Assembly (NCBI GenBank): GCA_000989765.1
Contig: LBOW01000004.1
Coordinates: 1 to 51,062, forward strand
Direction of reading: 5' to 3'
Origin: Candidatus Woesebacteria bacterium GW2011_GWB1_33_22
Lineage (GTDB): Bacteria > Patescibacteriota > Microgenomatia > UBA8517
DNA: 51,062 bases
In this document: positions 47,419 to 50,393 of the stretch, in pieces
Layout of the letters: each line of letters starts with the position of its first letter
How positions within the stretch are numbered: position 1 is the stretch's first letter
Position numbers and translations under genes: made by a program
Notes under the pieces: model-generated
Databases searched by the model: none
Told to the model about the DNA's origin: nothing
What the model saw: the letters and a program-made list of their open reading frames with translations, nothing else

Positions 47419-47979
47419 TTAAAGATTTACTTTTACAGATTTCATTTCATCAGAACTAACTTTCAAAAAATCTCCTGATTCAACTGTTTCCAAACCTTTT
47501 AGTTCTTCAAATTTAAATAGGTTAGCTATTATGTTTGTAGGAACAGTTGCCCTTTTGACATTGTAATCAGCTGTTAAGTCAATCAAAAGACGTCTTGAAT
47601 ACATGACTTTATCTGATGTATCTCGAAGTTCTCCCATTAAGTTTTCAACTACTGTATTTGCTTTAAGTTCAGGGTTACTTTCAACAACCACTCTAAGTCC
47701 TGATAATACATCAGAAATTTGTTTTGTTGCATCCTTTCCAGCTGAGACTAATTTTCTAGCTTCCGAGAGCATTTCAAGAATTCCTTTTTCGTGTGTTAAA
47801 TAACCTTTAACCGAGGCTTCAAGATTTGGTATTAAATCAGCTTGTCTTTTTAACTGGTTTCCAATTTCTTGGATTGATGCTTTAATTCTAGTTTTACTAG
47901 ATACAAAAAAATTATAAATTGAGACAACCCAAAAAATTACTAATGCTAGTAATCCTAATAATATATAAATAAAATTCAT
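47419..47979 (-). CDS. lemA: LemA family protein
   Basis: 186 residues. An N-terminal membrane helix (about 5-25) precedes a long helical LemA domain (QLKRQADLIPNLEASVKGY, MYSRRLLIDLTADYN). Found near HtpX in many bacteria, as here, though separated by hicA. Overlaps polX by ATGA. Confidence 0.93.
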   Translation of the reverse strand: MNFIYILLGLLALVIFWVVSIYNFFVSSKTRIKASIQEIGNQLKRQADLIPNLEASVKGYLTHEKGILEMLSEARKLVSAGKDATKQISDVLSGLRVVVESNPELKANTVVENLMGELRDTSDKVMYSRRLLIDLTADYNVKRATVPTNIIANLFKFEELKGLETVESGDFLKVSSDEMKSVKVNL

Positions 47980-49655
47980 TTAATATTCACCTCCTTCTTA
48001 AATTCTTCTAACTTCAGACAGTTTACTATATTTTTCTTCTCACACCAACCCCTTCTTGCAACATTTACTCCATATTTCATATTATCCATCATGGAAATTT
48101 CGTGAGTATCTGTACCAAGAGTTAATTTCACACCCAATTTAACAGCATCGCGGACCAAAGTGTCAGGTAAATCGAGTCTCATCGGATCTGCATTAATTTC
48201 CAAGAATTTATTATTTTTAAGACAGAAGTCAAAAATTTTCTCCCAATCAAGTTCAATTCCCTCTCTTTCGTTAATTTTCCGAGCACTAGGGTGAGCAAAA
48301 ATTAATGCTTTGGGGTAGGAGAGTGCTGTTAAAACTCTTTTGGTCATAGCATCTCTTCCTAGGTCAAAAACAGAATGAATTGATACTAAGGCAAAGTCAA
48401 GTGTATTAAGGCCTGCCTCAGGTACGGGTAAACTGCCATCTTTATTAATATCAATCTCAAGAGAATTGAATACTTTTATAGGCCAATTTCTTTCACGAAT
48501 ATATTCTTCTTTTGCTTTGAGTAAATCTGTTATTCGATTAAGGCTATGGCCTTTCTTACTTGGGTTATGTTCCGTGAAAGCTATGTATTCATAACCTAAC
48601 ACCTGTGCCCTATTCGCTATATCTTCTGCCGAGGATACTCCTAAATCATGACTTGTTTCAATATCGAAGTCTGAATGTATTTGAAGATCGCCCTTAATAT
48701 CTTCTTGTTTTACCAAAAGCGGTAGACCATTTGGTTTACCCTGAGCTTGCCGAAGGGACATTTTTATCTCCCCCATATCCTCCCTAAGTTCAGGTTCAAT
48801 ATAGTCTAGTCCTAAAAAATTATATAACTCTTCTTCTGTTTTAAAATTTTTATTAGGTTTAATACCATACTCTGAAAGAGAATATCCTTTGTTATGTGCA
48901 GATTCACGCAAAGCTATATTATGTTCTTTACTTCCTGTGAAATGTTGCAGGGCTGAGCCATATTGTTCTGAAGTTGTAACTAATAAATCAACCTGTACAT
49001 TATTTGGTAATAAAATAGAAGCTGTATGCTCCCCCGCCTCAATTACTTTTTGTGTTTTGGGATATTTTGTAAAATGTTTTATTATTTTTGCATTTTGATT
49101 TTTAAATTTTGATTTTACTAATATATCTATATCCCCTACCGTAGCTGTTTTTCTTCGTAGAGAGCCAAGACAATCTACCTTAAGTGTCTCAGGGCTTTCT
49201 TTTAACCATTCCATGACCTCAGAAGCTATATTTTGGGCATACGGGAGTGGGTGTCTTTTAGTTTTATTTATTACTTTATCAGCTTCTTTGAGTTTTTCTT
49301 TAATTTTTGATTTTGGTAGTTCTTTAAGCATTTTCATAGAAGTTTTAAGACCCACTTTAGGTAAGGCCATTAAAGTAAAGGCTTCTTTTGGAATTCCTTT
49401 CATTACCTCTTCAAAATGCCTGGATTTGCCTGTTTTAAATATTTCATCAAGGTAAGAAGCAATTGAAGGTCCAATTGATGGAACATCGGAAAGCTTTCCA
49501 TCATCCCACAAATCTTTAAGTTCTGAGGTTGAATGTTCTACTGCATCAGTAGCACGATTATAGGCAATAATCTGAAATTTGTATTTCTTTTCGTCTTTTA
49601 ACTGATAACTCGCAGCAACATTTCGTAGTAACTCAGCAATTTGAAGATTGGTCAT
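47976..49655 (-). CDS. polX: DNA polymerase X with PHP domain
   Basis: 559 residues from the ATG at 49655. N-terminal helix-hairpin-helix (ELLRNVAASY; IPSIGPSIA-like DVPSIGPSIASYLDEI), polymerase with VGDIDILVK and VQVDLLV catalytic Asp pairs, then a PHP nuclease domain (AFTEHN, FAHPSA, GTDTHE). The first PHP motif is GDLQIHSD where HxH is usual, so one metal ligand is Gln. A REP-like palindrome (48739-48757) encodes LRQAQG just before this domain. Role in base-excision gap filling. Confidence 0.93.
   Translation of the reverse strand: MTNLQIAELLRNVAASYQLKDEKKYKFQIIAYNRATDAVEHSTSELKDLWDDGKLSDVPSIGPSIASYLDEIFKTGKSRHFEEVMKGIPKEAFTLMALPKVGLKTSMKMLKELPKSKIKEKLKEADKVINKTKRHPLPYAQNIASEVMEWLKESPETLKVDCLGSLRRKTATVGDIDILVKSKFKNQNAKIIKHFTKYPKTQKVIEAGEHTASILLPNNVQVDLLVTTSEQYGSALQHFTGSKEHNIALRESAHNKGYSLSEYGIKPNKNFKTEEELYNFLGLDYIEPELREDMGEIKMSLRQAQGKPNGLPLLVKQEDIKGDLQIHSDFDIETSHDLGVSSAEDIANRAQVLGYEYIAFTEHNPSKKGHSLNRITDLLKAKEEYIRERNWPIKVFNSLEIDINKDGSLPVPEAGLNTLDFALVSIHSVFDLGRDAMTKRVLTALSYPKALIFAHPSARKINEREGIELDWEKIFDFCLKNNKFLEINADPMRLDLPDTLVRDAVKLGVKLTLGTDTHEISMMDNMKYGVNVARRGWCEKKNIVNCLKLEEFKKEVNIK
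48739..48757. repeat. REP-like short palindrome inside polX
   Basis: CCCTGAGCTTGCCGAAGGG, the form of a widely seen short palindrome (core CTGAGCTTGTCGAAG in many genomes). In frame it encodes LRQAQGK, an added peptide before the conserved LPLLVKQEDI. Such insertions are known from other bacterial genomes. Confidence 0.65.
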
Positions 49656-49831
49656 CAAGAACCACGCTTAATTTCATCACTTTCAGGCACACTTGTTGGC
49701 ATATGTATAGATCCAATACCTTCCTTTTCTTTCCTTAATTTTTCATTTAATTCTTCTAAAGTTAGTCTTTCTCGTTGTTCTTGAAGAGAACCTTCTTGAA
49801 TATTTTTCTGTTCTGGTATTAAATTACCCAT
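49655..49831 (-). CDS. Small charged protein upstream of polX
   Basis: 58 residues (MGNLIPEQKNIQEGSLQEQ... ending SDEIKRGS). Helical and Glu-rich. The stop TGA shares one base with the polX ATG, showing coupling. Not recognised. Confidence 0.55.
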   Translation of the reverse strand: MGNLIPEQKNIQEGSLQEQRERLTLEELNEKLRKEKEGIGSIHMPTSVPESDEIKRGS

Positions 49832-50096: not shown

Positions 50097-50393
50097 TGGC
50101 GGGATCGACGAGACTCGAACTCGCAACCTCTTCCGTGCAAAAAATCTTTCTGTTTCCAAAAAGCTTGGACTATCTCATCCCCGTTAGATGATAACACTAT
50201 CTCACGGGGCCAGGTATATAGTCTCTACACGTTTATCATTCGACTTCGCTCGTGACAAGTTGGTCAAACAAATTTAGCTCGGGATTATCATTTTAAAGAT
50301 TTCCCCGAATTAGCCTGGTTTACATCTAACTATTGCTAGAAAGAGCTGCCACTAAAGACAGGGAAGCGCTCTAACCAATTGAGCTACGACCCC
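50097..50393 (-). tRNA. tRNA-Asp (anticodon GTC) split by a group I intron
   Basis: 5' exon 50358-50393, 3' exon 50097-50137. Acceptor GGGGTCG/CGATCCC, G73 and encoded CCA, D-arm GCTC...GAGC, T-arm GCGAG-TTCGAGT-CTCGT. Anticodon stem CTTCC/GGAAG with loop CTGTCAC after splicing, the junction lying between U35 and C36 inside the anticodon. G73 and the GUC anticodon are the known identity elements of bacterial tRNA-Asp. Confidence 0.9.
50138..50357 (-). other. Group I intron in the tRNA-Asp anticodon loop
   Basis: 220 nt without an ORF. The upstream exon ends in U and the intron ends in G, as group I splicing needs. P1: exon CTGT pairs with GCAG a few bases into the intron, with U-G at the splice site. 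P4-like pairing TCGGG/CCCGA (P element 50299-50311; Q element AATCCCGAGC at 50277-50286). P7: GACTAT/ATAGTC (50218-50223 and 50168-50173), the guanosine site. P8: ACGGGG/CCCCGT (50179-50184, 50204-50209). Size fits tRNA introns of the IC3 type. Confidence 0.85.

Follow-up and report, generated by a model that had tools for sequence, protein, structure and literature searches.

A tRNA-Asp gene split inside its anticodon by a predicted group I intron and a neighbouring homing-endonuclease-like gene in a Woesebacteria genome

The tRNA-Asp locus and its neighbours

The window analysed here, a stretch of 51,062 nt, is one whole contig of the genome of Candidatus Woesebacteria bacterium GW2011_GWB1_33_22 (860 kb, 19 contigs, 97%-complete). 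On its minus strand lies a tRNA-Asp gene in two parts. Exon 1 (50393-50358, 36 nt) carries the 5' strand of the acceptor stem, the D arm, the 5' strand of the anticodon stem and the residues C32 U33 G34 U35; exon 2 (50137-50097, 41 nt) starts with C36 A37 C38 and runs through the 3' strand of the anticodon stem, the T arm and the acceptor stem to G73 and an encoded CCA. The exons are separated by an intron of 220 nt (50357-50138), which begins with C at 50357, ends with G at 50138 and contains no homing-endonuclease ORF. A preliminary description of this DNA had proposed that a group I intron interrupts the tRNA-Asp anticodon; the interval it gave (50138-50393) covered exon 1 and the intron and left out exon 2.

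Exon joins that respect the requirements of group I splicing, a U preceding the 5' junction and a G closing the intron, were compared with ARAGORN, and the best was a clean tRNA-Asp(gtc) with a score of 119.9 and the intron between U35 and C36. The joined exons form a normal cloverleaf of 77 nt with the anticodon GUC, G73 and CCA. ARAGORN run on the whole window missed this gene. It is the sole tRNA-Asp found in the genome: tRNA-Asp was absent among the 38 distinct intact tRNAs found elsewhere in it, and a BLAST search with the joined tRNA gave full-identity matches to the two exons only.

Upstream, 46 nt 5' of tRNA-Asp and on the same strand, is a free-standing ORF of 136 aa with a GTG start (50850-50440), which the preliminary description had overlooked. 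Its product belongs to PDDEXK_5 (PF11645; E 3.9e-21), and it is the one gene of this family in the genome. The sole match in the PDB was 2ost (E 3e-8), which we take to be I-Ssp6803I, the homing endonuclease found in the tRNA-fMet intron of Synechocystis; the D...QVK active-site motif is kept in the alignment with 2ost and homologues. It should be added that a PolX-type DNA polymerase beta/PHP gene (47976-49658, minus strand) lies downstream of tRNA-Asp, and that a similar gene is found near tRNA-Asp in genomes G001, G011, G021 and G003 as well.

Structure of the intron and state of the locus

The Rfam group I model RF00028 matched positions 50373-50146 of the minus strand over its full length (model 1-253 of 253) with 86.7 bits and E 1.2e-22, the gathering threshold being 50 bits. 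The match was recovered too in a search of the whole genome; a default fast Rfam scan of the whole window at the gathering threshold missed the intron. The earlier reading was thus challenged neither by a failure of the group I model nor by a second intact tRNA-Asp.

All the elements named in the preliminary description, namely the U at the 5' junction, the terminal G and the pairings P1, P7 and P8, were recognised again. P1 (50361-50346) pairs CUGU|C with GGCAG and places a U.G pair at the 5' splice site; it was paired, with U.G kept, in 33/33 homologues, and a P10 of 3 bp (GUG/CAC) is possible. P3 pairs CCAGG (50318-50314) with CCUGG (50214-50210), encloses P4-P6 and was 99.4% paired among the 33 homologues, with double changes in three pairs. 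P7, the predicted guanosine site, pairs GACUAU (50223-50218) with AUAGUC (50173-50168) and is nearly invariant (99.5% paired). Inside it lies P8 (50209-50204 with 50184-50179), which covaries at all six pairs, and the P9 hairpin (50163-50146) with its GAAA loop was 96.9% paired with covariation at 6/7 pairs. The intron combines a full-core match to RF00028 with a covarying P3-P9 core, in which P7 is pseudoknotted to P3, a 5' exon ending in the U of the P1 U.G pair, and a terminal G.

For the counts over the 33 homologues, P3, P4, P5, the P3/P7 pseudoknot, P8 and P9 were written out. Cells were paired in 86.2% of cases vs 77.1% in shuffled alignments, cells with double changes numbered 147 vs 58.9 (0/500 shuffles reached as high a value), and covariation was 0.289 vs 0.114; slid controls gave far lower values. 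P2 is seen in the intron of the window and is out of register in the homologue alignment. The 3' splice site is supported by P9.0, which immediately precedes the terminal G and forms in 58 of the 68 tRNA-Asn and tRNA-Asp introns taken together, against a mean of 27.3 and a maximum of 40 in 2000 shuffles. As a side observation, the P6 region (50230-50262) exceeds that of the intron in G001, a genome of the same genus, by about 36 nt and resembles palindromic inserts in P6 of three other introns (L195, L216, L228).

With this anatomy, we consider it very probable that tRNA-Asp(GUC) is split inside its anticodon by a group I intron, which is predicted to be self-splicing. Before splicing, the CUGU that ends exon 1 would be held by the internal guide GCAG in P1. 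Attack after U35 by an exogenous guanosine seated at P7 would free the exon end, which would in turn attack after the terminal G; ligation of the exons would then recreate the anticodon loop CUGUCAC. The locus might conceivably be dead, with an intron that no longer splices and a tRNA reduced to a pseudogene; this is highly improbable for the only tRNA-Asp of a 97%-complete genome, with an intact intron core and exons that match those of G011 with 100% identity across the aligned halves.

Introns and PF11645 genes at tRNA genes of Microgenomatia

Group I matches at E below 1e-12 were present in 109 of 281 Microgenomatia genomes. Introns in rRNA are common in this bacterial group; about 180 match regions were read for split tRNAs, and a host gene was assigned to part of them. 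Splits at 35/36 were found in tRNA-Asn(GUU) at 61 loci (one a duplicate) and in tRNA-Asp in 8 genomes, with a 3' half in a ninth (G031); the initiator tRNA was split at 33/34 at 13 loci at strict score. The genome of the window has a second group I intron of the latter kind, in tRNA-fMet at U33|C34 (L002, G000:C3:38505-38710). Named relatives with the tRNA-Asp intron are Woesebacteria and Microgenomates MAGs. Intronless alleles were looked for in relatives, and intron-free tRNA-Asp was read at 21 loci in the searched set of 55, the family of the window included. The preliminary description had supposed a new or rare host. This is only partly borne out: the site recurs in Microgenomatia, in tRNA-Asp of nine genomes and at about 60 tRNA-Asn loci, and the title of a 2025 preprint claims a novel intron site in tRNAs of Patescibacteria (Nakagawa et al. 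2025, bioRxiv 10.1101/2025.07.03.662931; in the reference list of PMC12641178).

Several candidates were discarded. A pattern search for the tRNA-Asp 5' junction across genomes returned 10 matches, of which the four real ones were all in Woesebacteria or Microgenomates; those in Chitinophagaceae, Clostridia and others contained no split tRNA. Joins reported by ARAGORN as tRNA-Thr UGU/AGU at position 33 were register shifts of tRNA-Asn split at 35/36. Separately, three tRNA-Asn introns of about 500 nt (L057, L172, L217) hold ORFs (about 96 aa) that show an HNH-like motif (LHHID...CxNCHREIH) and lie upstream of the P1 guide strand, scoring below the cut-off of Pfam HNH.

The bases CUGU before the junction are common to tRNA-Asn and tRNA-Asp (site CCUGU|). 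In the intron tree, tRNA-Asp introns of the window's family were nested among tRNA-Asn introns, and six of them formed one branch with a tRNA-Asn intron of G021 (support 98/96); this nesting makes a move from tRNA-Asn to tRNA-Asp within the family probable. A single origin of all tRNA-Asp introns was not adopted, since the tree placed two from another family (L253, L257) in the clade of fMet introns (100/100), and two origins are likely. Direction and number of moves are read from bootstrap support and are to be taken as likely, the AU test having rejected neither one clade of all tRNA-Asp introns (p 0.105) nor one of all tRNA-Asn introns (p 0.293). The cores of L253 and L257 resemble fMet introns with the guide retargeted to CUGU, possibly a second invasion of the site.

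PF11645 genes were rare and patchy, occurring in 34/374 genomes of the class. We considered 27 ORFs, the fetched set after removal of a long, low-scoring type: for 22 of them a tRNA gene started no more than 100 nt downstream, on the same strand, the chance expectation, a rough one, being about 0.06, and the gap was often 16 nt or less, or the genes overlapped. The flanked tRNAs were Asp (six, that of the window included), Tyr, Pro(CGG) and Arg(UCU), and two further genes preceded a 3' fragment of a tRNA-Ser gene. At these two loci (L274 in G010, L291 in G300) the PDDEXK_5 gene is followed directly by the T arm and acceptor part of tRNA-Ser, with an intact tRNA-Ser upstream, and at tRNA-Tyr loci L280-L283 and L286 the ORF overlaps the tRNA, its stop codon lying inside the acceptor stem.

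In the endonuclease tree, the copies linked to Asp, Pro, Arg and Ser formed one group each, and the first three groups each spanned different host families (three for Asp, three for Pro); the isotype labels required 4 changes, the minimum, vs 11.6 in shuffles. Decayed copies also occur. Outside the class, three high-scoring members, among the closest matches, lay inside tRNA-fMet group I introns, whose cores were confirmed with RF00028, and further members adjoined Thr, Tyr and Ser tRNAs. The linkage to tRNA genes together with the phylogeny by isotype points to isotype-specific tRNA homing endonucleases, and the product of 50850-50440 has, on these comparisons, a rather likely role in targeting tRNA-Asp.

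Relation of intron and endonuclease, and comparison with known systems

The genome of the window is the only one where tRNA-Asp has both the intron and an endonuclease gene that is intact. In five genomes (G007, G013, G014, G141, G323) homologues 50-57% identical stand at a tRNA-Asp lacking the intron, and the endonuclease therefore does not need the intron. Intron-bearing G001, of the window's genus, retains as a relic the nine terminal codons of the gene (VIFAKNYYW, then stop), and intron-bearing G012 has a similar C-terminal relic, both at the same spot 45-46 nt before tRNA-Asp. No relic was found at tRNA-Asp in intron-bearing G021 and G003, and a weak TGGTAG 45 nt upstream of tRNA-Asp in G011 was not counted.

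The intron belongs to the lineage at the same anticodon-loop site of Microgenomatia tRNA-Asn genes. The endonuclease would most likely cut tRNA-Asp alleles without its gene, repair copying the gene and possibly the intron too, as in collaborative homing. A free-standing gene beside an ORF-less intron is the layout of such a pair, and the pattern of presence and relics is compatible with collaborative homing or with a cycle where fixation of the intron leaves the gene without a use. That the endonuclease cooperates with the intron is nevertheless doubtful in our view. We give an even chance to the two being unrelated neighbours, an independent homing element having taken the 5' flank of tRNA-Asp and the intron having come by reverse splicing from tRNA-Asn, with no collaborative homing. 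Such independence agrees with the five genomes where the gene sits at an intron-free tRNA-Asp, with the lack of relics in G021 and G003, and with the CUGU target shared by the tRNA-Asp and tRNA-Asn introns, for which reverse splicing at the RNA level would suffice; the intron and relic at one spot in both G001 and G012 speak against it, since the locus must then have been shared for long.

Endonuclease genes placed beside one particular tRNA gene after another suggest a little-known class of tRNA-targeting selfish genes; no description of isotype-specific, tRNA-flanking PD-(D/E)XK genes was found in the open-licence papers searched. Tentatively, and with somewhat less than even confidence, we propose that free-standing I-Ssp6803I-type endonucleases of Patescibacteria are such a class, each lineage devoted to one isotype and inserted at the 5' boundary of the tRNA, where the mature tRNA would be freed by RNase P, much as it is by splicing in the case of an intron. 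An old gene order inherited vertically, or a host gene with a tRNA-related function, would not require homing, and the relics of G001 and G012 could be vertical. We regard this explanation as unlikely: the gene is scarce and scattered, the flanked isotypes differ between genomes, Asp- and Pro-linked copies cross families, some copies have decayed, and three of the closest matches reside in tRNA-fMet introns.

A sole, essential tRNA that needs splicing for its anticodon indicates that ribozyme parasites reach deep into minimal genomes, and its split, which escaped both ARAGORN and the fast Rfam scan, shows why Patescibacteria come out of tRNA searches with tRNAs reported as missing. The relationship of tRNA-Asn and tRNA-Asp introns offers a concrete case of an intron passing to another host gene without a change of anticodon position. 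Should the linkage of endonuclease and tRNA genes be confirmed, intronless homing would be extended beyond phages to the tRNA genes of cells, and the origin of mobile tRNA introns could be linked in a testable way to free-standing endonucleases.

Group I introns in tRNA have long been known, and the intron of the window adds to a known type. In bacteria they interrupt the anticodon loops of tRNA-Leu(UAA), fMet, Ile(CAU), Arg(CCU) and Arg(UCU) and are usually filed under IC3. The present intron resembles them in being ORF-less and about 200 nt long, in its P1-P9 core and anticodon-loop position, and in the U.G at the 5' site and the terminal G; it differs in its host, tRNA-Asp, in the junction U35|C36 and in having tRNA-Asn introns at the same junction as nearest relatives. 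CPR tRNAs with group I introns have been mentioned before (PMC8172020), and the introns of Nakagawa et al. (2025) are, as far as their title tells, of the same kind and from the same bacterial group. The neighbouring gene shares with I-Ssp6803I the family PF11645, the conserved D...QxK motif and the tie to a tRNA gene, but it is not located in the intron: it lies directly 5' of the tRNA, and it belongs to a tRNA-Asp-specific lineage. For phages, collaborative and intronless homing have been reviewed (PMC3984707); the locus is similar to the collaborative case in pairing an ORF-less intron with a free-standing homing endonuclease gene, and unlike it in the cellular genome, the tRNA target and the PD-(D/E)XK enzyme, the parallel here being one of gene layout.
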